Of a stretch of 64,000 nt of DNA, positions 35,249 through 49,971 are shown one piece after another. Positions within the stretch are counted from its first letter, which is position 1. Each line of letters opens with the position of its first letter. A program made the translations under genes and the position numbers. Below the pieces are notes generated by a model, which saw nothing but the letters and a program-made list of their open reading frames with translations, was not told the DNA's origin and made no database searches. The stretch comes from Clostridia bacterium (lineage in GTDB: Bacteria; Bacillota; Clostridia; Oscillospirales; QAKW01), in the NCBI GenBank assembly GCA_017937065.1, contig JAGBEI010000028.1:62001-126000 (forward strand), written 5' to 3'.

Positions 35249-35452
35249 ATGTCAATATCATATAAAAAATTATGGGTTATGCTTGCCGAAAAAGGTATGT
35301 CAAAGGCAGAACTGCGAAAGACCGTAGGTATTACACCGGGCATACTAACCAAAATGAACAAGAACGAGGTTATTTCTTTTTCTATCCTCTTGAAGATATG
35401 CGACGCTTTCAAGTGTGATATAGGCGACATAGTTGAGGTTATACACGAATAG
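35249..35452 (+). CDS. Small XRE-family helix-turn-helix regulator
   Basis: A 67-residue Cro/C1-type protein consisting of little more than the HTH (LAEKGMSKAELRKTVGITPGILTKMNKNEVISFSILLKICDAF). TTGGAGG precedes the ATG. It is the first gene of the restriction-modification operon and probably acts as its controller, limiting early expression of the restriction subunit after entry into a new host. The role is inferred from position. The hsdM start lies 67 nt downstream. Confidence 0.88.
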   Translation: MSISYKKLWVMLAEKGMSKAELRKTVGITPGILTKMNKNEVISFSILLKICDAFKCDIGDIVEVIHE

Positions 35453-35519
35453 TCCGTTTTTAGGGACAGTCAAAATGTTAAAATTAGAGAAAGAATATAC
35501 AGATAAGGAGTTTTCTATA

Positions 35520-37085
35520 ATGATTGATAACAGAAAAGAACAGGAGCGTGCGGAGCTTCACCGCACGATATGGAATATTGCAAACGATTTAAGGGGCAGT
35601 GTTGACGGCTGGGACTTCAAACAATATGTGCTTGGCTTCCTCTTTTATCGCTATATATCCGAGAATTTGACCGCATACATAAACAAGGGCGAAATTGAAG
35701 CCGGTACGCCCGATTTTGATTATTCAAAGCTCACCGATGAAGAAGCCGAGTGCGTAAGAGCTGATATGGTAACTACAAAAGGCTTTTTCATATTACCGAG
35801 CGAATTGTTTTGCAATGTCAGAGCAAATGCGGCAAAGGACGAAAACCTTAACGAAACGCTTTCAAAGGTTTTCAAAAATATTGAAAGCTCCGCACAGGGT
35901 ACAGTCAGTGAGGACGATTTCAAAGGTCTGTTTGACGATATAGATGTAAATAGCAATAAATTAGGTGGTAGCGTTGCAAAGAGAAACGAAAGACTTGTAA
36001 AGCTCCTTGACGGAATCGGTGAAATGAAGCTCGGAGATTTGCAGAACAACACCATTGACGCATTTGGTGACGCATACGAATACTTAATGAGTATGTATGC
36101 CTCCAACGCAGGTAAATCCGGCGGCGAATATTACACACCGCAGGAGGTTTCCGAACTGCTCACAAAATTAACCATTATCGGCAAGACAGAGGTAAACAAG
36201 GTTTACGATCCGGCGTGCGGCTCCGGCTCTCTGCTTCTTAAATTTGCAAAGGTGCTTGGCAAGGATAAGGTAAGACAGGGCTTTTTCGGACAGGAAATCA
36301 ATATTACTACATACAACCTTTGCAGAATCAATATGTTTCTGCACGATATTGATTATAACAAATTCAATATCGCACACGAAGATACATTGACAGAGCCGCA
36401 GCATTGGGACGACGAGCCTTTTGAAGCAATTGTTTCAAATCCACCTTATGCTATTAGATGGCAAGGTGACGATAACCCTGTTTTAATTAACGATCCCCGT
36501 TTCTCGCCGGCAGGCGTGCTTGCTCCGAAATCAAAAGCCGATTTTGCTTTTATTATGCACTCTTTATCTTGGCTTGCAACAAACGGTACGGCGGCAATAG
36601 TTTGTTTTCCCGGCATTATGTATCGCGGCGGTGCAGAACAGAAGATAAGAAAATATTTAATTGACAATAACTTTATAGACTGCATTATTCAGCTTCCCAG
36701 CAATCTTTTCTATGGTACAAGCATTGCAACCTGTATTATGGTTTTGAAGAAATCGAAAACAGATAATTCCGTTCTTTTCATTGACGCAAGCAAGGAATGT
36801 GTTAAGGTTACAAACAATAACAAAATGACGGCTGAAAACATTGACAACATTATAAACACCTACACCGAAAGAACAGATAAGGAATATGTTTCAAAATGTG
36901 TGGCAAATGACGAAATCGAAGCACAGGACTATAACCTCTCTGTATCAAGCTATGTTGAGCAGGAGGACACAAGAGAAAAGATAGATATTACAGAGCTTAA
37001 CAAACGCATTGATGAAATCGTGGCAAGGGAAAGCCTTTTGCGTGATGAAATTAGCAAAATAATTGCAGAAATCGAGGTGCAGTAA
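35520..37085 (+). CDS. hsdM: Type I restriction-modification methyltransferase subunit HsdM
   Basis: A 521-residue N6-adenine methyltransferase. It has an N-terminal HsdM helical domain (RTIWNIANDLRGSVDGWDFKQYVLGFLFYRYISE), SAM-binding motif I DPACGSGSLLLKF near residue 229 and catalytic motif IV NPPY near 306. ATG 35520 is preferred because AAGGAG lies 9 nt upstream; the open frame continues to 35433 and overlaps the regulator gene. With HsdS it forms the methylase and with HsdR the restriction complex. Codon use is AT-rich like the rest of the island. Confidence 0.95.
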   Translation: MIDNRKEQERAELHRTIWNIANDLRGSVDGWDFKQYVLGFLFYRYISENLTAYINKGEIEAGTPDFDYSKLTDEEAECVRADMVTTKGFFILPSELFCNVRANAAKDENLNETLSKVFKNIESSAQGTVSEDDFKGLFDDIDVNSNKLGGSVAKRNERLVKLLDGIGEMKLGDLQNNTIDAFGDAYEYLMSMYASNAGKSGGEYYTPQEVSELLTKLTIIGKTEVNKVYDPACGSGSLLLKFAKVLGKDKVRQGFFGQEINITTYNLCRINMFLHDIDYNKFNIAHEDTLTEPQHWDDEPFEAIVSNPPYAIRWQGDDNPVLINDPRFSPAGVLAPKSKADFAFIMHSLSWLATNGTAAIVCFPGIMYRGGAEQKIRKYLIDNNFIDCIIQLPSNLFYGTSIATCIMVLKKSKTDNSVLFIDASKECVKVTNNNKMTAENIDNIINTYTERTDKEYVSKCVANDEIEAQDYNLSVSSYVEQEDTREKIDITELNKRIDEIVARESLLRDEISKIIAEIEVQ

Positions 37086-37089
37086 AGTG

Positions 37090-37276
37090 GTTGTTTCCAT
37101 TTTGGAAACAACTGAACTATTTAGAAATTCAACTTGTGCAAAATTTGCACAAGTTGAGAATGCTTGTAAATTAAGGAAACACCGTTTCCCCAATTTAATA
37201 TAAGAGCAGTTATCCCAAAAATTCGGATAACTGCCGATGATAATAAAACTGAACTATTCGGAATTTCCGAATAGTT
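37090..37276. repeat. Cluster of short perfect hairpins between hsdM and the RAYT gene
   Basis: Four palindromes stand in 190 bp: GTTGTTTCC-ATTTT-GGAAACAAC (37090-37112), AACTTGTGCAAA-A-TTTGCACAAGTT (37131-37155), GCAGTTATCC...GGATAACTGC (37206-37234) and AACTATTCGGAA-T-TTCCGAATAGTT (37252-37276). A smaller GGAAAC-ACC-GTTTCC lies at 37175-37189. The motif CTGAACTATT appears twice. The first hairpin recurs in longer form after the transposase gene. Confidence 0.75.
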
Positions 37277-37292
37277 GCCTGCGAGGAAATAT

Positions 37293-37790
37293 ATGAACGA
37301 ATTACCCAAACGGAAACAAATTCGGTTAAAAGAATACGATTATACCCAAAACGGATATTATTTTATAACGGTATGTACGCATAACAGACAAAATTTATTC
37401 GGCGAAATCGTAGGGGCGACCCTGCGTGGTCGCCCGAATAATCCCGACAAAATGATTGAAAAATGGTTGTTGAAATTAGAAAATAAATTTGATGATGTGA
37501 AAATTTGTGAATACATTATAATGCCCGATCATTTACATTTTATAATATCAAAAACGGGCGACCACACAGGGTCGCCCCTACGGGATATTGTGGGTTGGTT
37601 TAAAACAATGACAACAAACGAATATATTGCAAATGTAAAAAATAATATATTTCCACAATTTGATAAAAAGATATGGCAACGCAATTGTTACGAACATATT
37701 ATCCGTGATGAAAATGATTATATAACAAAGACAGAATATATTTTGAACAATCCGTTGAAATGGGAATTGGAACATATATACGAAGAATAA
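37293..37790 (+). CDS. REP-associated tyrosine transposase (RAYT, IS200-like Y1 family)
   Basis: A 165-residue HUH-type transposase. It has YYFITVCTHNRQNLFGEI at the N-terminus, the HUH motif MPDHLHFII near residue 77, and the Tyr region around NCYEHIIRDENDYITKTEYILNNP. ATG 37293 follows GCGAGG. RAYTs mobilise or maintain short REP hairpins. Two REP-like hairpins lie inside this coding sequence and encode VGATLRGRPNN and KTGDHTGSPLR. It interrupts the usual hsdM-hsdS order without breaking either gene. Confidence 0.9.
   Translation: MNELPKRKQIRLKEYDYTQNGYYFITVCTHNRQNLFGEIVGATLRGRPNNPDKMIEKWLLKLENKFDDVKICEYIIMPDHLHFIISKTGDHTGSPLRDIVGWFKTMTTNEYIANVKNNIFPQFDKKIWQRNCYEHIIRDENDYITKTEYILNNPLKWELEHIYEE
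37411..37436 (+). repeat. REP hairpin 1 (inside the RAYT gene)
   Basis: TAGGGGCGACC-CTGCGT-GGTCGCCCG; 8-bp stem GGGCGACC/GGTCGCCC with a 6-nt loop. Same sequence family as REP 2 and REP 3. Confidence 0.85.
37555..37582 (-). repeat. REP hairpin 2 (inside the RAYT gene, inverted)
   Basis: Reverse complement reads CGTAGGGGCGACC-CTGTGT-GGTCGCCCG. It is inverted relative to REP 1, with which it forms a BIME-like pair 120 bp apart. Confidence 0.85.
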
Positions 37791-37815
37791 GTTTAGCAAT
37801 GGCGAATCGGTTGAA

Positions 37816-37850
37816 AACGTGGTTGTTTCCAAAATGGAAATAACCACGTT
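37816..37850. repeat. Long hairpin downstream of the RAYT gene
   Basis: AACGTGGTTGTTTCC-AAAAT-GGAAATAACCACGTT, 15-bp arms with one G-U pair. It contains the GGTTGTTTCC core of the hairpin at 37090, so related hairpins flank the transposase gene. Confidence 0.75.
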
Positions 37851-37875
37851 TGTAGGGGCGGATATTATCCGCCAG
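37851..37875. repeat. REP-like hairpin, variant stem
   Basis: TGTAGGGGCGGATATTATCCGCCAG shares the GTAGGGGCG head of the REP family but has a GGCGGAT/ATCCGCC stem. Confidence 0.65.
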
Positions 37876-37895
37876 AAGAAAAAATACGGCGAAAT

Positions 37896-37923
37896 CGTAG
37901 GGGCGACCCTGTGTGGTCGCCCG
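37896..37923 (+). repeat. REP hairpin 3 just upstream of hsdS
   Basis: CGTAGGGGCGACC-CTGTGT-GGTCGCCCG ends 24 nt before the hsdS ATG, so the hairpin sits next to the ribosome entry region and could influence hsdS translation. Confidence 0.85.
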
Positions 37924-37947
37924 AAGAAAAGAAAGATGGTGAAAAAT

Positions 37948-39096
37948 ATGAGCAAATTAAATGATTTAATAGAAAAGCTCTGCCCTGACGGTGTGGAATA
38001 TGTAAAAACGGAAGAAATTTTGACTATCAAAAATGGTAGTGATTATAAAAGCTTTTCAGAGGGAAATGTCCCTGTTTATGGTTCGGGCGGAATTATGACT
38101 TATATAGATACCTATGTTTATGATAAGCCTTCTGTCTTGATACCTAGAAAGGGGTCTATTGATAAATTATATTATGTCGATACACCGTTTTGGACTGTTG
38201 ATACAATTTTCTATACGATAATAGATACGGAGAGAATTATACCTAAATTTTTGTTTTATGTGTTAGAGGGTAAACATTTAGAAAAATTAAACACCGCCGG
38301 AGGTGTTCCAAGTTTAACGCAAAAGGTCTTAAATGTGGTTACAATCCCTGTACCTCCGATAGAGGTACAGAGTGAAATTGTCAGAATACTTGACAATTTC
38401 ACGGAGCTTACAGCAGAGCTTACAGCAGAGCTTACAGCAGAGCTTACAGCAAGGAAACAGCAGTATGAGTATTATAGAAAAAAATTACTTTCATTTGATG
38501 AAACTATACCCGTAGTATCAATAAATGATGTGTGCAAAAATGTTTCGTCCGGCGGAACACCTTTAACATCTCATTCAGAGTATTATAGTGGCAACATTCC
38601 TTGGTTAAGGACGCAGGAAGTTGATTGGATAGATATTTATGACACAGATGTTAAAATCACAGAAGAAGGCATTGTAAACTCGTCTGCAAAATGGATTCCA
38701 ACAAATTGCGTTATTGTTGCTATGTACGGAGCAACAGCAGCTAAAGTTGCAATAAATAAAATTCCGCTAACGACAAATCAAGCGTGTTGTAATCTTGAAA
38801 TTGACAATACAAAGGCAAATTACAGATATGTTTTTCATTGGCTTTGTAGTGAGTATGAAAATCTAAAAGCATTAGGACAAGGCTCACAATCAAATATAAA
38901 TGCTGGAATTGTTAAGTCCTATCCAATACCATTGCCGCCCATAGAGAAACAAAATCAAATTGTGGAAATACTTGATAAATTTGATGCATTGTGTGCAAAT
39001 ATTTCAGAGGGACTACCGGCAGAAATCGAAGCAAGACAAAAGCAATATGCGTACTATCGGGATAAACTACTGACTTTTAAGGAGATTAAAGCCTAA
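37948..39096 (+). CDS. hsdS: Type I restriction-modification specificity subunit HsdS
   Basis: A 382-residue subunit with two target-recognition domains (about residues 15-150 and 190-335). Each is followed by a conserved helix (EVQSEIVRILDNF...RKQQYEYYRKKLLSF and EKQNQIVEILDKF...RQKQYAYYRDKLLTF). The first spacer helix contains four exact Thr-Ala-Glu-Leu repeats (12-bp DNA repeats). In EcoR124-type systems the copy number of such repeats sets the distance between the two half-sites recognised. Start ATG 37948 has only a weak site; ATG 37936 is the alternative. Confidence 0.92.
   Translation: MSKLNDLIEKLCPDGVEYVKTEEILTIKNGSDYKSFSEGNVPVYGSGGIMTYIDTYVYDKPSVLIPRKGSIDKLYYVDTPFWTVDTIFYTIIDTERIIPKFLFYVLEGKHLEKLNTAGGVPSLTQKVLNVVTIPVPPIEVQSEIVRILDNFTELTAELTAELTAELTARKQQYEYYRKKLLSFDETIPVVSINDVCKNVSSGGTPLTSHSEYYSGNIPWLRTQEVDWIDIYDTDVKITEEGIVNSSAKWIPTNCVIVAMYGATAAKVAINKIPLTTNQACCNLEIDNTKANYRYVFHWLCSEYENLKALGQGSQSNINAGIVKSYPIPLPPIEKQNQIVEILDKFDALCANISEGLPAEIEARQKQYAYYRDKLLTFKEIKA
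38404..38451 (+). repeat. Four tandem 12-bp repeats in hsdS (ELTA x4)
   Basis: GAGCTTACAGCA occurs four times in a row without a mismatch. Gain or loss of one unit keeps the frame and adds or removes four residues (TAEL) in the spacer helix. Confidence 0.97.
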
Positions 39097-39728
39097 TGGC
39101 AAAAAAGAGCAAGAAAAACAAAAATACTGCAAACAATGTGAATATAGTTCTGCCCGAATCACTCTCTGCCGAGGAAATGAAAAATATTCTTGTAGAAGCA
39201 ATGCTTGAAGTAGAACAGCGTAAAGCAGAGTTGGCTAATACGGAAAATGAAAATGATTTGAAAGAGTGGAGAAAAAGTCTTGGAATAAAGGACTATTCTG
39301 CCGATAAGAAAATCCGTTTTCGCAAAATCAAGCAAATGTGCAATACCATTTATGCCTTTTTCAAATTATCTTTTTTACCCAAAAGTCAAATTAAGGGTGA
39401 CAGGGCAACCATAGGATTATTAAAATTCTTTTTATGTGCTATTTTCGATATGGCAAAGATTATCCTAACACTTTGCTCTATCTGCCTGATTGCTTTTATA
39501 CCGTTGCAGTATTTTATCCAAAGCCTAACTCCATTAAGTATTTCCAAAAATATATTTGTGTTTTGTTTTGCGTTTATGTTATTTATGCTATCAAGATTTT
39601 TCCGTATAGCAAGTATTGAAATTGACCGAATAGACGATAAAAACTTTTTATTCGGTGTATTTGCATCCATAACATCAATCGTTTCAATAATTATTGCTGT
39701 TGTATCTATTTTTTATAAGGGGGTATAA
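39096..39728 (+). CDS. Membrane protein of unknown function inside the hsd operon
   Basis: A 210-residue protein, not recognised. It has a Lys/Asn-rich N-terminus, a predicted coiled coil with many Glu (about residues 24-60; AEEMKNILVEAMLEVEQRKAEL), then three or four membrane helices from about residue 108 (FFLCAIFDMAKIILTLCSICLIAFI, IFVFCFAFMLFMLSRFF, FGVFASITSIVSIIIAVVSIFY). Its ATG shares a base with the hsdS stop (TAATG) and hsdR begins 2 nt after its stop, so it is translated as part of the operon. It is not a standard type I subunit. Confidence 0.8.
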   Translation: MAKKSKKNKNTANNVNIVLPESLSAEEMKNILVEAMLEVEQRKAELANTENENDLKEWRKSLGIKDYSADKKIRFRKIKQMCNTIYAFFKLSFLPKSQIKGDRATIGLLKFFLCAIFDMAKIILTLCSICLIAFIPLQYFIQSLTPLSISKNIFVFCFAFMLFMLSRFFRIASIEIDRIDDKNFLFGVFASITSIVSIIIAVVSIFYKGV

Positions 39729-39730
39729 AA

Positions 39731-42700
39731 TTGGCTGAATATAATATCATTATGGCGGCGAATGAAAGCACGGTTGTCGCTGAATATACTCCCGAACAGA
39801 AGAAATCGGACGCATATCAAAGCGAGGCGGCTCTTGAAAAAGAGTTTATCCGTATGCTTGCTGAACAGGGGTACGAATATATCACTATTCACAGCGAGGA
39901 AGCGCTTATTTCAAATCTGCGTAAACAGCTTGAAAAATTAAACAATTACACCTTTTCTGATAGCGAATGGGATCGTTTTTTCAGTACCTTTATTGCCGCC
40001 GATAACGACGGTATTGTGGAAAAGACGCGCAGAATACAGGAAGACCATATCGGTGTGCTGACCTGCGATGACGGCACGCTGAAAAACATTTATTTGCTTG
40101 ATAAAAAGAAAATACATAACAACTTTTTGCAGGTTATCAATCAGTACGAAAATCAATGCGGAATGCGAAATGCAGAATGCGGAATGGATAAAAACGATAA
40201 TTCCGAATTACGCATTACAAATTCCAAATTAAAAAATCGTTACGATGTAACGATTTTGATTAACGGTCTGCCCCTTGTTCATATTGAGCTTAAACGCCGT
40301 GGCGTTGCAATCCGTGAAGCGTTCAATCAAATTAAGCGGTATCAACGGGACAGCTTTTGGGCAAAATCGGGTCTTTATGAGTATGTGCAGATCTTCGTCA
40401 TCTCCAACGGAACGAATACGAAGTATTATTCCAACACCACACGAAACAGCCATATCAAAGAAGCAAACGGTAACACCAAGAGCAAAAAGACAAGCAACAG
40501 CTTTGAGTTTACTTCCTATTGGGCGGATGGCAATAACAAGGTTATTGCCGATCTTATTGACTTTACAAAAACATTCTTTTCAAAGCATACGATACTCAAT
40601 ATCCTAACCAAGTATTGCGTATTCACCTCGGAGGAGCTTTTGCTCGTAATGCGTCCTTATCAGATAGCTGCTACCGAACGGATATTAAACCGTATTGAAA
40701 TATCCTCTAACTACAAAAAGACGGGAACGGTAGATGCAGGCGGCTATATCTGGCACACCACAGGCAGCGGTAAAACGCTGACCTCGTTCAAAACCGCCCA
40801 GCTTGCCACTAAAATTGACGGTGTTGACAAGGTTTTATTTGTTGTTGACAGAAAAGACCTTGATTACCAGACAATGAAGGAATATGACCGCTTTGAAAAG
40901 GGAGCGGCAGACGGCAATTCCTCCACGGCTGTTCTGCAAAGACAGCTTGAGGACAGGGACGCAAAGGGCAATCCCCACAAATACAACATCATTATAACTA
41001 CCATTCAGAAATTGGATGTGTTTGTCACCAAGAACAAAAGCCACGATATTTATAACAAACACATTGTCATTATTTTTGACGAATGCCACCGTTCACAGTT
41101 CGGGGATATGCACCTTAAAATCACAAGGCAGTTCAGGAATTATCATATCTTTGGGTTTACAGGCACACCGATTTTTGCCGTAAATGCTTCAAGCGGCGGT
41201 AATCCCCGTCTTAAAACAACACCGCAGGCGTTTGGCGATAGGCTGCACACCTACACGATTGTTGACGCCATCAATGACGGGAATGTTCTGCCGTTCAGAA
41301 TTGATTATCTTGATACAATCAAAAAGAAAGATAATATCAGCGATAAAGATGTATCGGCAATCGACATTGAAAGGGCGATGAACGCACCCGAAAGAATTTC
41401 GGATATTGTCAGCTACATTATCGAGCATTTCGATCAAAAGACAAAGCGAAACAGCTTTTATTCACTGAAAGGTCAACGGGTATCGGGCTTTAATTCTATC
41501 TTTGCGGTAAGCTCTATTCCGGCGGCTATGAAATACTATGCCGAATTTAACAGACAGCTTGCCGAGAAGAAGAAAAAACTGACGGTTGCCACCATATACA
41601 GCTTCGGGGCAAACGAAGCCGATCCGGAGGATGTTCTTGCAGACGAGAATTTTGATACGGATAATCTTGACAAAACCTCAAGAGAGTTTCTTGAATGTGC
41701 CATACAGGATTACAACAAAACCTTTAATGTGAATTTCGACACCTCAAGCGACAAGTTTCAAAACTACTATAAAGATTTGTCACAGAGAATGAAAAGCCGT
41801 GAAATTGATATTTTAATCGTTGTCAATATGTTTCTGACAGGCTTTGACGCAACTACCCTCAACACTCTTTGGGTTGATAAGAATTTGAAAATGCACGGTC
41901 TTATTCAGGCATTTTCAAGGACAAACCGTATCCTTAATTCCGTAAAGACCTTCGGTAACATTGTCTGCTTCCGTGATTTACAGCAGGAGGTTGAGGACGC
42001 TATCGCCCTTTTCGGAGATAAGGAGGCAAGCGGAATAGTAACGCTTAAAAGCTATGACGATTACTATAACGGATATGAGGAAAACGGAAAGCATATTGAC
42101 GGTTATACTGATCTTATTGACAGGCTCTTAAACGAATTTCCACTGTCCGAACAGATTATAGGCGAACAGGCGCAAAAGGAGTTTATAAAGCTGTTCGGAG
42201 CGATTTTAAGGCTGAAAAATATTCTTTCCTCTTTCGATCATTTCGAGGGGCAGGAGATTTTACCGCCGAGAGTGTGGCAAGATTATCAGAGCATTTATAT
42301 TGACCTCTGGCACGAAATAGCGCCGCCGAATAAGGCTGATAAGGAAAATATCAACGAGGACATTGTTTTTGAAATTGAGCTTATAAAGCAGGTTGAAATC
42401 AATATTGATTATATCCTTATGCTTGTAGAGAAATATCACGAATCGAATTGTACGGATAAGGAAATACTTGTAACGATAGATAAGGCAATAGGCTCGTCAA
42501 TCCAATTACGCAGTAAAAAACAGCTTATTGAGCAGTTTATCAAAACTGTCAATGCCTCCGGCAATGTCAGTGATGAATGGCGGAAATTTATACATAAGCA
42601 AAAGGATAACGACCTTGACGAGATTATTACTGCCGAGCGATTAAAGGCTGATGAAACAAAGACCTTTATTGATAATTCTTTCCGTGACGGCGAGCTGAAA

Positions 42701-42835
42701 ACAATCGGTACGGATATTGACGGCATACTGCCGCCTATGTCCCGTTTCGGAGGAAGCAACCGAGAGGAAAAGAAACAGACGGTAATTGAAAAGCTGAAAG
42801 CATTTTTTGAAAAGTATTTCGGACTGATAAATTAA
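39731..42835 (+). CDS. hsdR: Type I restriction endonuclease/translocase subunit HsdR
   Basis: A 1034-residue subunit. The N-terminal nuclease core has the ExK pair in HIELKRRG near residue 185. It is followed by a superfamily 2 motor with Walker A TTGSGKT near 342, DECHRSQFGD near 449 and FTGTPIF, and a C-terminal helical region. The start is TTG, with AAGGGGG upstream; the first ATG is 7 codons later. A repeat-derived segment (QCGMRNAECGM...) is inserted in frame near residues 142-168, shortly before the nuclease motif. Length is within the family's range, and no stop or frameshift is seen. Confidence 0.95.
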   Translation: MAEYNIIMAANESTVVAEYTPEQKKSDAYQSEAALEKEFIRMLAEQGYEYITIHSEEALISNLRKQLEKLNNYTFSDSEWDRFFSTFIAADNDGIVEKTRRIQEDHIGVLTCDDGTLKNIYLLDKKKIHNNFLQVINQYENQCGMRNAECGMDKNDNSELRITNSKLKNRYDVTILINGLPLVHIELKRRGVAIREAFNQIKRYQRDSFWAKSGLYEYVQIFVISNGTNTKYYSNTTRNSHIKEANGNTKSKKTSNSFEFTSYWADGNNKVIADLIDFTKTFFSKHTILNILTKYCVFTSEELLLVMRPYQIAATERILNRIEISSNYKKTGTVDAGGYIWHTTGSGKTLTSFKTAQLATKIDGVDKVLFVVDRKDLDYQTMKEYDRFEKGAADGNSSTAVLQRQLEDRDAKGNPHKYNIIITTIQKLDVFVTKNKSHDIYNKHIVIIFDECHRSQFGDMHLKITRQFRNYHIFGFTGTPIFAVNASSGGNPRLKTTPQAFGDRLHTYTIVDAINDGNVLPFRIDYLDTIKKKDNISDKDVSAIDIERAMNAPERISDIVSYIIEHFDQKTKRNSFYSLKGQRVSGFNSIFAVSSIPAAMKYYAEFNRQLAEKKKKLTVATIYSFGANEADPEDVLADENFDTDNLDKTSREFLECAIQDYNKTFNVNFDTSSDKFQNYYKDLSQRMKSREIDILIVVNMFLTGFDATTLNTLWVDKNLKMHGLIQAFSRTNRILNSVKTFGNIVCFRDLQQEVEDAIALFGDKEASGIVTLKSYDDYYNGYEENGKHIDGYTDLIDRLLNEFPLSEQIIGEQAQKEFIKLFGAILRLKNILSSFDHFEGQEILPPRVWQDYQSIYIDLWHEIAPPNKADKENINEDIVFEIELIKQVEINIDYILMLVEKYHESNCTDKEILVTIDKAIGSSIQLRSKKQLIEQFIKTVNASGNVSDEWRKFIHKQKDNDLDEIITAERLKADETKTFIDNSFRDGELKTIGTDIDGILPPMSRFGGSNREEKKQTVIEKLKAFFEKYFGLIN
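40155..40236. repeat. Dispersed AATGCGGAAT/ATTCCGAATT-type repeat embedded in hsdR
   Basis: The left part repeats AATGCGGAATGC, AATGCAGAATGCGGAAT; the right part is ATTCCGAATTACGCATT, its imperfect complement, followed by ACAAATTCCAAATT. It encodes NQCGMRNAECGM and NSELRITNSKLK, a pattern that recurs in many unrelated bacterial proteins where such repeats have landed. Confidence 0.75.
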
Positions 42836-42845
42836 AAACTCATAA

Positions 42846-42882
42846 ATGACAGATTGTTAAAATGACAGTCTGTTATTTTTTT
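42846..42882 (+). terminator. Terminator after hsdR
   Basis: ATGACAGA/TCTGTTAT stem (one G-U) with a 15-nt loop, followed by seven T. Imperfect direct repeats ATGACAG...TGTT lie in the loop. Confidence 0.6.
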
Positions 42883-43035
42883 GTTTCAATATGTGTAAAA
42901 ATTCAATTTTAAGTATTACCTATATAGAGGAAAAAATTTTTTGAAATTTTTTCAATATTTGGTTGTAAATTTGACTATTTTTTTGTTTATTATATGAACG
43001 CAAAAATATTTCAAAAAGGGGTTGGGAAATCCCAA

Positions 43036-43293
43036 AAAACAAAATCAAATTTTGGGCGTGTGGCTACACAGGCTATGCTTGCTATTAACTAAAATAGCGA
43101 GCATTACAAAATTTGAAATTTCGTAAGTGGGTACTCACTTACTGTGCTTGCTCTTTTGAAAAAGTGAGCGAGCACCGAAATTGATATTTTGCAGTCAATG
43201 GGTACTCATTGGCTATGCTTGCTACAACTTTATTTCAGCAAGTATGCAAAATTTGATTTTCCGTAAGTGTGGCTACACTTACTGTGCTTGCTA
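43036..43293. repeat. Four-unit tandem hairpin array upstream of the recombinase genes
   Basis: Each unit of about 65-72 bp has an A/T spacer like AAAATTTGATTTT. Next comes hairpin A with loop GGCT or GGTACT (GTGTGGCTACAC 43058; GTAAGTGGGTACTCACTTAC 43123; CAATGGGTACTCATTG 43196; GTAAGTGTGGCTACACTTAC 43263). Then comes hairpin B beginning RTGCTTGCT (43075, 43144, 43217, 43284). Hairpin B closes with complementary AGCGAGCAT, GAGCGAGCAC or AGCAAGTATGC in units 1-3 and is truncated in unit 4. The 160 bp before it (42883-43035) are AT-rich with nothing recognised. Confidence 0.75.
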
Positions 43294-43334
43294 CCAAAGT
43301 TTTTAATGAATTTCAAGGAAAGGATTGGATAGGA

Positions 43335-45234
<1,900 letters not shown>

Positions 45235-45260
45235 AAAACCTATGCCGTTTCAACGAAAAC

Positions 45261-45306
45261 ATTATTACTGTTTTATTAAGGACACCATTATGCCGGTGTG
45301 TTTTTT
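45261..45306. other. Right junction of the integrated element (attR-like)
   Basis: ATTATTACTGTTTTATTAAGG (45261 onward) is the inverted counterpart of the element arm at 34423-34445. CGGTGTGTTTTTT (45294-45306) is the right half of the split terminator and now ends on the stop codon of the convergent SGNH gene. A small local stem ACACC/GGTGT with T-tail still exists here. Confidence 0.6.
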
Positions 45307-46295
45307 CAGTATTCGTATTGACTGCGGTATTCCTTCAGCTGACTGTCCCAAAAGCTGTATTTATCATCTCCGCGTCTGTCGGGAATGCTGTAATTTGCTT
45401 TTATAAAATATCCGAGAAATGCTGTGACCTTCAGCGCCCCTTTTGCGTTACAGTGCCATGGGTCTCTGTAATCGGTGGCAGGGTCGAAATTTATTTCACG
45501 GTACCGCATGTTCAAATCGATATAATTAATTGAGTATTCTTGTGCAATGTCGTTTACCGCGTTGCACCGCGGCAGGCTTTCATGCTCCTCCACCGCAGGC
45601 GCGTTGAACAGCATTACTTCTATTCCTTTTTCCCTGCAAAGCTCAATCATCATGCGAAGATACTTTTCGGCAGTCGGATACATTGCGGTTTTATCGTCTG
45701 TTGAAATTTCCCTGTTGGGAGAGCAGGGCGTGCAGTCCGTACTGACATATGAGCCTTTGGTTATTGATTTTATCGGTAAAAAGTCATTCTTGCCAAGCTC
45801 TTTCCAGCGAGAGTGAAATCTGACAATATTGAATATATACTCCGTTCGCGAACCGCTGTCAAATAAATCCCAAATCGCCTGGTACTTTACGGGTGAGAAT
45901 GACATGTTGTCAATTTGAACGTGTGCGTACTCGGCAGTAGAAATTTTTGTGTCGTATATAACGCCCGATACATCGAGCACTATCATTTTCGGGGTCTGGT
46001 AGCGCAGCGCTTCCTTAAGCTGATAGTAGGATTGCGGCAGAAGCTGCGCGGAGCTTGCAAATACGTACGAGGCAATACCGTATCGGTCGTACAGCTCCAT
46101 CGGATAGACGGAGCACATAACGTGGCTGGAGCCGATAAAAATGACGTCAAGTGTATTTTTCGGCTCGTCATAAAACGGCAGGACAATGTTTGCTTCGTTT
46201 TTGTTCCGAAGTATATACGTTGCCCCTGAGAACAGAAGGCAGAATATGAGCATAAAGGCGGCTGCCTTTATAATTCTTTGCAATTTTATATTCAT
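45306..46295 (-). CDS. SGNH-hydrolase-like (DltD/AlgX-type) membrane-anchored protein
   Basis: A 329-residue protein with one N-terminal membrane helix (residues 8-28). Its extracytoplasmic domain carries a Gly-Ser-Ser-His block (DVIFIGSSHVMCSVYP, near residue 55) and a C-terminal DYRDPWHCNAKGA block, the expected Ser and Asp/His of the SGNH fold. Such proteins partner MBOAT acyltransferases and move or remove acyl groups on surface polymers. AAGGAGG precedes ATG 46295; a longer frame upstream overlaps the MBOAT gene. Last gene of a four-gene leftward operon. Confidence 0.82.
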   Translation of the reverse strand: MNIKLQRIIKAAAFMLIFCLLFSGATYILRNKNEANIVLPFYDEPKNTLDVIFIGSSHVMCSVYPMELYDRYGIASYVFASSAQLLPQSYYQLKEALRYQTPKMIVLDVSGVIYDTKISTAEYAHVQIDNMSFSPVKYQAIWDLFDSGSRTEYIFNIVRFHSRWKELGKNDFLPIKSITKGSYVSTDCTPCSPNREISTDDKTAMYPTAEKYLRMMIELCREKGIEVMLFNAPAVEEHESLPRCNAVNDIAQEYSINYIDLNMRYREINFDPATDYRDPWHCNAKGALKVTAFLGYFIKANYSIPDRRGDDKYSFWDSQLKEYRSQYEY

Positions 46296-46306
46296 GATTG
46301 TCCTCC

Positions 46307-47875
46307 TTAAAACTGAAAGTAAATAAATGATGAGGAGGAATATCCGGGACCGTATACTCCGAATATTATAACCGAAAACAACAATATAAAATATACCGCC
46401 CATCGCAGTACGAGCGGCTTTGCCGCAACAGCTTCACGTATGTCAACCTCTTTTGCACGGTATATGTCCGTAATAATAAGCACTGCGACAGCTATCAGCG
46501 CAACAAGCAGATCCGCTTTGTCAAGCCCAATGCCTGCCGGAGAGTTAAGAGGCGCCGAGACTGAAAAAATCCGCCCTATTATGCCAAAAGCCTGCGTCAT
46601 GCCGGTGCTTCTGAAGAATATATATCCGAGACACACAAGCGCAAAGGTTTTGAGTATCTGCACCGACTTGTAAAGCGGCTTGCTTCTGTCTATTGAATGC
46701 TTCTGCACAAATCCGTCAAAAACAGGCGCAAGCAGCGTAGACAGAATTATCAGTATACCGTAATATACGCCCCAGATAATGTAGTGCCAGCTTGCTCCGT
46801 GCCACATGCCCGTAAAAAACCATACACACATAAGCGCAATAACCGTTGTTACTTTGCCGGACAGCTTTTTGCCGAACTTCTCCTTAATAAATTTTCCGAG
46901 CTTTGAACACCAGCCGGAGCGCATGACAGGGTAGAAGAGATAATCCCGAAACCACGACCCGAGGGTAATGTGCCACCTCCGCCAAAACTCCGGAACGGAC
47001 GCGGAGAAATACGGCGCTTTGAAGTTTTCCGATAAGCGGATACCCATAATTTCCGAAGCTCCGAGTGCTATATCCATATAACCGGCAAAGTCGGCATAAA
47101 TCTGTATCGCGTAAAAAATACAGGCGAGTATCAGCTCTATTCTGCCGTATGACGAGTATTGCGCCCATACGGTATCGACCGCAATGGCGAGCCTGTCCGC
47201 AATTACGAGCTTTTCAAAAAAGCCGAACATCATTCTTTGAATACCGCGCGTCATTCTTTCGTATTCAAATGCGTGTCCGTAATACAGCGTTTCCGAAAGC
47301 TGAGAAAACCTTCCGATAGGTCCCTGCATAATCTGAGGGAAATAGCTTACAAACAGCGCGTATTTGAAAAAGTTGCGCTCCGCGCCGCTGATACCGCGGT
47401 ATACGTCGATAACGTATCCCGTAACCTGAAAGGTATAAAATGAAATTCCTACGGGCAGCAGCAGACTTGACAGGACAGGCGAAAACTCAATTCCGAACAC
47501 GCCTGCAAGCGCAGAGATATTAAGCACCGTAAAATTATAATACTTAATTAAAAACAGAACCGCAAAATTCAGAATGACCGCAAAGGCGACAATCAGCTTT
47601 TTTCTCTTTTGCAGCCGTTTTTTTGCTTGCTTGCGTTCTTCCTTTGAAAGCGATGAAATGTCGGCTTTTTCTGTTAATTTTTCCATCAAAACCGCGGCTG
47701 AAAATGTAACTGCGGTTGAAAATACAAGAAAAACACCGTACTTTATGCTCGCCGAAAGATAGAAAAAATAGCTTGAAAGCAAAAGCCAAACCCAACGGTA
47801 CTTTTTGGGAAAAAGAAAATATATAATAACCGTTGCGGTGATAAACAATATAAATTTCAGTGAAGTAAAAACCAT
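46307..47875 (-). CDS. MBOAT-family membrane O-acyltransferase (AlgI/DltB-like)
   Basis: A 522-residue multi-pass membrane protein. Family segments include LLPVGISFYTFQVTGYVIDVYRG, FKAPYFSASVPEFWRRWHITLGSWFRDYLFYP and the catalytic His in FFTGMWHGASWHYIIWG (near residue 360). MBOAT proteins take an acyl group on the cytoplasmic side, often from a carrier protein, and pass it to a surface sugar or polymer. The start directly follows the stop of the acyl carrier gene (TAAATG), so the pair is coupled. Confidence 0.93.
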   Translation of the reverse strand: MVFTSLKFILFITATVIIYFLFPKKYRWVWLLLSSYFFYLSASIKYGVFLVFSTAVTFSAAVLMEKLTEKADISSLSKEERKQAKKRLQKRKKLIVAFAVILNFAVLFLIKYYNFTVLNISALAGVFGIEFSPVLSSLLLPVGISFYTFQVTGYVIDVYRGISGAERNFFKYALFVSYFPQIMQGPIGRFSQLSETLYYGHAFEYERMTRGIQRMMFGFFEKLVIADRLAIAVDTVWAQYSSYGRIELILACIFYAIQIYADFAGYMDIALGASEIMGIRLSENFKAPYFSASVPEFWRRWHITLGSWFRDYLFYPVMRSGWCSKLGKFIKEKFGKKLSGKVTTVIALMCVWFFTGMWHGASWHYIIWGVYYGILIILSTLLAPVFDGFVQKHSIDRSKPLYKSVQILKTFALVCLGYIFFRSTGMTQAFGIIGRIFSVSAPLNSPAGIGLDKADLLVALIAVAVLIITDIYRAKEVDIREAVAAKPLVLRWAVYFILLFSVIIFGVYGPGYSSSSFIYFQF

Positions 47876-48115
47876 TTAGGCTTCCTGCTCGATAACGTCT
47901 GCCATATCTCCGACGTTTTTCATTGCCACAACGCTTTTCATATCGAATTTTATATCAAATTCATCCTCTACCGCGGAAATGAGGGTTATATGCATGAGTG
48001 AATCCCAGCCGTCAATGTCGGCTGCCGTTGTGTCCTCTGATACGGTTATTGTATCGTCATCGAATACGTCCGCGAAAACATCGTTAAGTCTTTCAAAAAT
48101 TTCGTTTCTGTCCAT
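47876..48115 (-). CDS. Acyl carrier protein
   Basis: A 79-residue acidic carrier protein. The phosphopantetheine Ser is in DGWDSLMHI (Ser39). It is a specialised carrier between an FkbH-like loading enzyme and an MBOAT acyltransferase, much as DltC serves DltA and DltB. Its start overlaps the FkbH stop by one base (TAATG). Confidence 0.93.
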   Translation of the reverse strand: MDRNEIFERLNDVFADVFDDDTITVSEDTTAADIDGWDSLMHITLISAVEDEFDIKFDMKSVVAMKNVGDMADVIEQEA

Positions 48116-49896
48116 TAGTTTTCCACCTCAATTACTTTATTTTTATTTTGATAGCCGCTTATATCAAGCTCCCATTCGCTGCTGCTTTCTGTTTCGGACA
48201 GCTTTTTAAATCCGAGCGTGCCGTAAAAATCCTTTACCATCGCATTTTTCGCTGTTTTGTAATAGTAGCCGTACAGCTTTTTTATACCCTGTGCCTTTGC
48301 CGCGCCAACAAGACTGTCGAGCATGGCAAGCTCCATATCGCGTTTAAGCACTCGGCAGCTCATCAGCCACAGCCTTATATGGAGCTTATCGTTTTCTTTT
48401 TCGCCTATGACAACGGTTATAACTCCGTTGTCACCGTATTTGTCCGAAAGCTTGCCGTAAAGACGAATGTATTTATCGTCTTTTGAGATATTCTCCATCT
48501 CGCTTTCGGATATACGCAGGGTTGTCAGATTGAACTGGTTCGATTTATTCGTGAGCTGGGCTATGCGGGGAATATATACCGGCTCAAAATCCCGTATTAC
48601 CGCTTTCATATCAAGTGAGAGCAGGTATTCCCCGTAGTCGGCAAACTGAGTCTGCTCGGCTGCTCTTGCGGCGTTTTGACGGTACATTTCGTTTCTCTTG
48701 ACGTCGTCGCCCGTCAGCTCGGTTACCTCAAAAAAGCGTGAGCGGTCGAGTATTCCGATATAATCTTCCGGAGAGCCGATATCGGGTGCCTCCGTCTCGG
48801 GGTGACTTGCCGTTACCATAGCCCGCTCGGCGGGATTATCGTCCACGAATACAATGCTGTCCGTGCCGATGTTCAGCTCCCCGGCGATTGCAGACAGATT
48901 TCTGTCCTTTGACTCCCAGTTTGCTTTTATTACAATAAAATCCTCCGGCTTCAGTGTGCCCTCCGGGTGGTTAAGACCTGCTATTGCATTTTCATGCTCG
49001 TTTTTGGAATTTACATTGAGCGTTATTCCTATGGAGGAAATATCCTTCAGGTATTTCTGAAATTCGCTGTAAACCTGTCCCATGGAGGTCTCGTGTCCTA
49101 TCTCGATTCCCTCTACGCCGTCGTCGCCGACAACGCCGCCCCAGAGCGTATTGTCCAGATCAAGCGCAAGCGCTTTTTTGTTTTTCCCGTAAACCGATTT
49201 TATAATAGACGCAAGATTGAATGAAAATTCGGGTATCGCGTCAAGCGCAAGGCAGTATTTGTACATATGCCAGTAAAACGGCGCTGACCAACGCGAAAGC
49301 CCGTAATCCGCTGACAGATAGTTTATGTCGTTTATATAAAAACCGCTGTTTGCCGCCGCATAATCGGCAAATTTCATGTTCAGTCTGTTTATAAAATTCG
49401 TGTGCCCGCGCCTGTTTGAGGCGTCGCTGTTGCCGAGCAGACGAAAGTAGGGCAGCTCAAAATTATTTTGTATTATTATGACCGAGCCGAATTTGTTTTT
49501 CAGCGCCTGCCATGCGCTTTCAAACCGTACAAATTCCTCATTAAGCAGCTTGTCCGTTTGCTCATCACTGTCTGATATCGCAGGAAATTTCGTGATGTTG
49601 CGGCTGCTTGTATGAATGAATATTACATCGGGCGAAAACTCGTAAAGCTCCTGCGGGCAGAACATCGCGTCCTGCCACCACTGCCCGAATTCCGATTCAT
49701 AGAATGTCGGACGTATGCCGCAGTTTAAAAGAAACAGCTCGGCAATCGAAATTATATCATGCGTGGTAGAGCCGCCCAAAACCGCAATTTTCTTATCAAT
49801 AAAGTTATTTGTCCCGGCAAGGAGCTCTTTTTTAATTGACCTGCGTTTTTTCAGTATCATCTGCGGGTCAAACGGGTATTGTAAAGCCTTGTACAT
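48115..49896 (-). CDS. FkbH-like HAD-IIIC protein with N-terminal SGNH-like and C-terminal GNAT-like domains
   Basis: A 593-residue protein. Residues about 35-225 look SGNH-like (KIAVLGGSTTHDI, VIFIHTSSRN). Residues 240-400 hold the HAD phosphatase-type core ALDLDNTLWGGVVGDDG with FVDDNPAERAMV. Residues about 435-580 look like an acetyltransferase fold. FkbH-type enzymes take a phosphoglyceryl unit from 1,3-bisphosphoglycerate, dephosphorylate it and load it on an acyl carrier protein. The adjacent carrier gene makes that role likely here; the actual acyl group is unproven. First gene of the operon. Confidence 0.88.
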   Translation of the reverse strand: MYKALQYPFDPQMILKKRRSIKKELLAGTNNFIDKKIAVLGGSTTHDIISIAELFLLNCGIRPTFYESEFGQWWQDAMFCPQELYEFSPDVIFIHTSSRNITKFPAISDSDEQTDKLLNEEFVRFESAWQALKNKFGSVIIIQNNFELPYFRLLGNSDASNRRGHTNFINRLNMKFADYAAANSGFYINDINYLSADYGLSRWSAPFYWHMYKYCLALDAIPEFSFNLASIIKSVYGKNKKALALDLDNTLWGGVVGDDGVEGIEIGHETSMGQVYSEFQKYLKDISSIGITLNVNSKNEHENAIAGLNHPEGTLKPEDFIVIKANWESKDRNLSAIAGELNIGTDSIVFVDDNPAERAMVTASHPETEAPDIGSPEDYIGILDRSRFFEVTELTGDDVKRNEMYRQNAARAAEQTQFADYGEYLLSLDMKAVIRDFEPVYIPRIAQLTNKSNQFNLTTLRISESEMENISKDDKYIRLYGKLSDKYGDNGVITVVIGEKENDKLHIRLWLMSCRVLKRDMELAMLDSLVGAAKAQGIKKLYGYYYKTAKNAMVKDFYGTLGFKKLSETESSSEWELDISGYQNKNKVIEVEN

Positions 49897-49971
49897 ATGT
49901 CACCTCCGAATATAACGGATAAATTATATATTTAATAAATTTGTAAGTCAAGTATAATCGCTCTTTTGCTT

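Follow-up and report, generated by a model that had tools for sequence, protein, structure and literature searches.

Can an FkbH-type loader and its carrier protein feed an MBOAT/SGNH pair, and if so, which group would reach the bacterial surface? The question is raised by a locus at positions 45306-49896 of the window (the whole stretch of clostridial DNA analysed, 64,000 nucleotides), where four co-directional, almost gapless genes for FkbH, ACP, MBOAT and SGNH lie on the minus strand. A sequence-only reading had proposed these four as loader, carrier, MBOAT and SGNH, and the open reading frames together with family and fold matches bore out both the assignments and the positions. The FkbH stop and ACP start codons overlap in the sequence TAATG, and no nucleotide separates the ACP stop codon from the MBOAT ATG. 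The SGNH reading frame spans 46403-45306; its most likely start is the ATG at 46295, 11 bases beyond the MBOAT stop and preceded by AAGGAGG. The features of the locus are as follows.

49923..49951, minus strand: promoter-like site TTGACT-17-TATAAT, 5' of fkbH (11/12 consensus matches, top-scoring in the region; assigned on consensus match alone)
48115..49896, minus strand: FkbH-type loader, 593 aa (TIGR01686, 259 bits; TIGR01681, 56 bits; PF21211 or FkbH_N, 45 bits)
Residues about 36-232 of FkbH, minus strand: N-terminal extension (PF21211; Foldseek)
49161-49159 and 49155-49153, minus strand: codons of D246 and D248 in the HAD-IIIC phosphatase domain of FkbH
48357-48355, minus strand: codon of Cys514, within an MSCR motif, in the GNAT-like C-terminal domain of FkbH
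47876..48115, minus strand: acyl carrier protein, 79 aa, with phosphopantetheine Ser39, codon 48001-47999 (PF00550, 30 bits; GWDSL motif)
46307..47875, minus strand: MBOAT transferase, 522 aa, with RRWH (H302) and WHG (H359) (PF03062, 46.8 bits; invariant residues)
46310..46327, minus strand: FIYFQF, an FxYxxF acyl-shuttle hexapeptide at the MBOAT C-terminus (sequence)
45306..46295, minus strand: membrane-anchored SGNH protein of DltD-like fold, 329 aa, with GxS Ser57 and D275/D278-x-x-H281 (AF2, Foldseek, alignment, RBS)
About 45223..45251, minus strand: terminator-like hairpin with a 12-bp stem, 3' of the SGNH gene (sequence and fold, -21.6 kcal/mol for a 55-nt stretch)

Upstream, the minus strand also carries a pair of ABC transporter genes. 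The presence of the promoter-like site directly upstream of fkbH suggests that the four genes form their own transcription unit. The segment directly downstream of the operon (35433-45234) contains type I restriction-modification-like genes and a large serine recombinase in lower-GC DNA. Congeners carry other genes in its place and the block is probably an inserted element. Within it, a transposase-like ORF (37275-37900; TnpA_REP type, by eye) sits beside two copies of a repeat coding for GEIVGATLxGRP, which could be a short repeat associated with it.

The score of the window FkbH lies above the curated TIGR01686 cut-off of 146.65 bits. When its AF2 model was submitted to Foldseek, the N-terminal and phosphatase parts matched PDB entry 3SLR (E 7.7e-27) and the C-terminal part matched GNAT acyltransferase structures (E about 1e-5). 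Entry 3SLR, Bacteroides fragilis BF1531, comes nearest among solved structures, sharing about 31% of residues across the N-terminal and phosphatase domains; the protein is itself uncharacterised. The sequence-only reading had seen "added" SGNH-like and GNAT-like domains in FkbH. An unusual domain fusion was discarded: the succession of NEX, phosphatase and acyltransferase is the published, standard three-part layout of FkbH-like proteins (PMC12304814). Conservation at the presumptive active sites is high. Among 119 FkbH homologues, the HAD motif DLDNTLWGG is exact in 111 and the MSCR cysteine is kept in 118. Alignments showed both HAD aspartates (DxDxT) and the SCR cysteine to be common to the window protein and to the FkbH proteins of a tetronate-type operon (L156) and a methoxymalonate-type cluster (L157).

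Formation of glyceryl-ACP is attributed to FkbH in such pathways (PMC7489565), and some NRPSs have FkbH where the A domain would stand (PMC8949500). The glycerate-utilisation genes of tetronate and methoxymalonyl-ACP pathways, which pair FkbH with a standalone ACP, share the HAD and Cys motifs of the window FkbH. They differ in what follows: there, glyceryl-ACP passes to a FabH-like enzyme or a polyketide synthase, whereas in the window it would face the MBOAT/SGNH pair. Because the catalytic motifs match those of FkbH from tetronate and methoxymalonate clusters, a glyceryl group made from 1,3-bisphosphoglycerate is our best guess for the cargo, on the premise that the window enzyme uses the same substrate as its published relatives. 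For the glycerate-derived cargo put forward in the sequence-only reading, the evidence thus consists of family membership and conserved catalytic residues. FkbH would take an acyl-phosphate, most likely D-1,3-bisphosphoglycerate; its HAD domain would strip the remaining phosphate, and the glyceryl group would pass to the phosphopantetheine thiol of the ACP, probably by way of Cys514 in the GNAT-like domain, which would carry it as an acyl intermediate.

The window ACP could bear other acyl groups, and the same membrane relay might deliver another glyceryl-derived or related group, such as lactyl, L-glyceryl formed by epimerisation, or glycerate that keeps a phosphate. FkbH products are converted further in some polyketide pathways (PMC7489565), and a VOC gene of the methylmalonyl-CoA-epimerase type is inserted in several loci related to that of the window. 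The window operon contains no reductase, dehydratase, methyltransferase or VOC gene, which makes unmodified glyceryl the simplest reading, and we consider a different cargo rather unlikely. The VOC protein itself (PF13669) has invariant H5, E54, H77 and E127 and was found inside operons at L129:9032-9430 and L102:9033-9437, in L140, L154, L039 and L067, and in Sinorhizobium meliloti (L155:4871-5338). It could act as an epimerase at C2 of the acyl group on the carrier.

The MBOAT scored 171 bits against the DltB model, under the 375-bit cut-off, and aligned with the solved DltB structure 6BUG (E 5e-31). The motif FxYxxF was found at the C-terminus of 78 of the 87 complete MBOATs surveyed; among the remaining nine, seven end in FIYARI or FIYSRI, with the tyrosine kept, and one in LYAQF. 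In the Dlt system this acyl shuttle is a peptide of its own, DltX, whereas PatA-like MBOATs carry it fused at the C-terminus (PMC12148441). No separate DltX peptide was found at the locus, where the MBOAT begins right at the ACP stop and bears the motif itself. The SGNH protein fell below every family cut-off, including that of PF04914 (DltD), and a PDB sequence search with its alignment returned weak matches only. Its identity was resolved by fold: the AF2 model (pLDDT 92.9) gave DltD of E. faecium as the top PDB match in Foldseek (E 4e-5), with PatB matched lower. In its alignment the GxS motif and the C-terminal histidine are conserved. Thus, the locus combines the hallmarks of MBOAT-SGNH surface acyltransferases, namely an MBOAT with the conserved histidine and FxYxxF and an SGNH partner with GxS and a histidine. 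In another locus (L054, G011:C80), several SGNH reading frames follow one MBOAT in series, hinting at more than one acceptor.

Setting these genes, motifs and folds against what is published for their families, we propose that the MBOAT, working at the inner face of the membrane, would transfer the ACP-bound acyl group to the tyrosine of its own C-terminal FxYxxF, that Ser57 of the SGNH protein with the DltD-like fold would receive it next, and that this protein would esterify a hydroxyl of a surface polymer. A relay from carrier to tyrosine to serine is published for relatives (PMC12148441). Each chemical step is proposed here from family membership, as is the acceptance by this MBOAT of the acyl group on this ACP.

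The window module shares with the Dlt pathway of teichoic acid D-alanylation (DltA, DltB, DltC, DltD, DltX) a carrier-bound acyl donor, an MBOAT, a DltD-like SGNH protein and a tyrosine shuttle motif. It differs in that FkbH stands where Dlt has the adenylating DltA, in the fusion of the shuttle to the MBOAT, in an SGNH protein and an MBOAT that score under the PF04914 and DltB cut-offs, respectively, and in a predicted cargo that is an uncharged hydroxy acid. With PatA/PatB, the pathway of peptidoglycan O-acetylation, and with PatA1/PatB1 of B. cereus, it shares an MBOAT and a partner of the SGNH superfamily, and PatA likewise bears a fused FxYxxF. PatA takes acetyl-CoA, however, and Pat pathways lack a carrier protein or loader; indeed, MBOAT/SGNH pathways other than Dlt are described as working without a carrier in a 2025 account of the MBOAT-SGNH mechanism (PMC12148441). 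Carrier and fused motif occur together in the window and its relatives. The most fitting description of the module is a hybrid of Dlt and Pat: the carrier is Dlt-like, the shuttle is fused in the manner of Pat, and FkbH takes the loader's place. Its genes do not stand in exactly the order of a dlt operon. Of the resemblance to Dlt suggested by the sequence-only reading, the underlying logic is well supported by the conservation, the fused FxYxxF and the DltD-like fold; the mirrored gene order does not hold, and a hybrid fits better than the exchange of a single part. A canonical Dlt operon was rejected, the locus being devoid of DltA, DltD and DltX.

The genomic survey that the sequence-only reading had called for showed the gene set to recur. 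Of 396 genomes from the order, 69 contain FkbH homologues. Two locus surveys, with at least three records common to both and counted in each, yielded 86 well-flanked loci: an ACP lies near FkbH in 81 of them, a co-directional MBOAT lies within 6.5 kb of FkbH in 64, and in 48 the MBOAT is accompanied by a recognised partner, SGNH or DHHW. Chance clustering was rejected, as the expectation for an MBOAT near FkbH is about 1-2.5%, assuming 2-4 MBOAT genes per 2.1-Mb genome. There are two main layouts, FkbH-ACP-(VOC)-MBOAT-SGNH and MBOAT-DHHW-FkbH-ACP. Named records with the gene set belong mainly to Lachnospiraceae, Oscillospiraceae and other Clostridia. The pSymB replicon of the plant symbiont S. 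meliloti also carries VOC, MBOAT (ending in FLYQGF), SGNH, ACP and FkbH genes. In strain R14 (L155/L160, record 300033-305955) the reading frame of fkbH seems to be broken into two ORFs. The module is thus real, conserved and widely distributed. In two congeners (L035:4150-5801 and L055) two ORFs lie after the operon and, judged by eye, look like the regulators BlaI and BlaR1, a pairing that would point to control by wall stress.

In 17 of the 86 loci, no recognised MBOAT or DHHW partner lies near FkbH, so FkbH-ACP may have other roles as well. Another use in Clostridia is seen in L053 and L065, where a MaoC-like dehydratase gene comes after FkbH-ACP and there is no MBOAT. Loci of the former kind would be expected if the MBOAT were a plain O-acetylation enzyme working on acetyl-CoA like PatA, with FkbH-ACP serving another pathway and merely co-located. 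A fused FxYxxF is indeed typical of MBOATs using acyl-CoA (PMC12148441), and the DHHW family includes PatB1, the B. cereus O-acetyltransferase of the secondary wall polysaccharide (PMC9487903). The gapless order, the use of the same parts in two layouts and the recurrence in an alphaproteobacterium make coincidence unlikely, and we regard plain O-acetylation as improbable.

In the window genome, which is 1.9 Mb in size and 99.7% complete, MBOAT and FkbH are each encoded once. No match to DltD (PF04914) was found in it; its two full-length AMP ligases best match acyl-CoA ligase models rather than DltA, all below cut-off, and a third AMP-ligase match fits no model. Across the order, MBOAT genes occur in 350 of the 396 genomes and canonical DltD in 13. 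None of the latter is among the 69 with FkbH, a distribution that is not significant (probability 0.08), so that mutual exclusion of Dlt and FkbH across genomes is suggestive only.

As to the acceptor, the window genome encodes two LCP ligases and, among proteins with a sulfatase fold, four comparable to LtaS in size, of which one matches LtaS weakly; this makes a wall glycopolymer plausible. The acceptor and the glyceryl identity are the least certain parts of our proposal; candidates for the former are teichoic-like polymers, secondary wall polysaccharides and capsules. Glyceric acid derivatives are known on bacterial surface glycans in another setting, the flagellin of C. jejuni (PMC3068675). 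Alternatively, the group might go to a secreted small molecule, a glycolipid or a protein. No polymer-synthesis genes lie beside the window operon, and for one natural product made by an NRPS with an FkbH-like domain, acylation by an MBOAT has been proposed (PMC13122637). The SGNH or DHHW partner is, however, membrane-anchored and extracytoplasmic, and the S. meliloti set lies about 10 kb from a capsule region with polysaccharide export and polysialyltransferase-like genes. An acceptor of this other kind seems to us very improbable.

Together, these findings point, with reasonable though far from complete confidence, to a carrier-fed surface acylation module that is loaded by FkbH, has glyceryl as its most likely cargo and forms an ester on a surface polymer. 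No earlier description of FkbH, HAD-IIIC or glyceric acid together with an MBOAT, and none linking FkbH to gellan acylation, was found in the open-licence literature; nor did that literature yield biochemistry on any member of the gene set. The first 20 of 9,353 papers matched on FkbH and wall polymers contain no mention of FkbH, which is weak evidence. Whether the module represents a third surface-acylation architecture is, in our estimate, an evenly balanced proposition: it would be loaded by FkbH without ATP from a glycolytic acyl-phosphate, combine a Dlt-like carrier with a Pat-like fused shuttle, place glycerate (sometimes epimerised) on wall or capsule, and be commoner than Dlt in this order. 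If our proposal is correct, carrier-fed MBOATs can do without a separate DltX, whereas the 2025 account (PMC12148441) treats non-Dlt pathways as carrier-free. Gut Clostridia would then couple surface decoration directly to glycolytic flux, and their surfaces would bear esters that routine assays for acetate or D-alanine would miss. S. meliloti offers a tractable organism in which to test the module.
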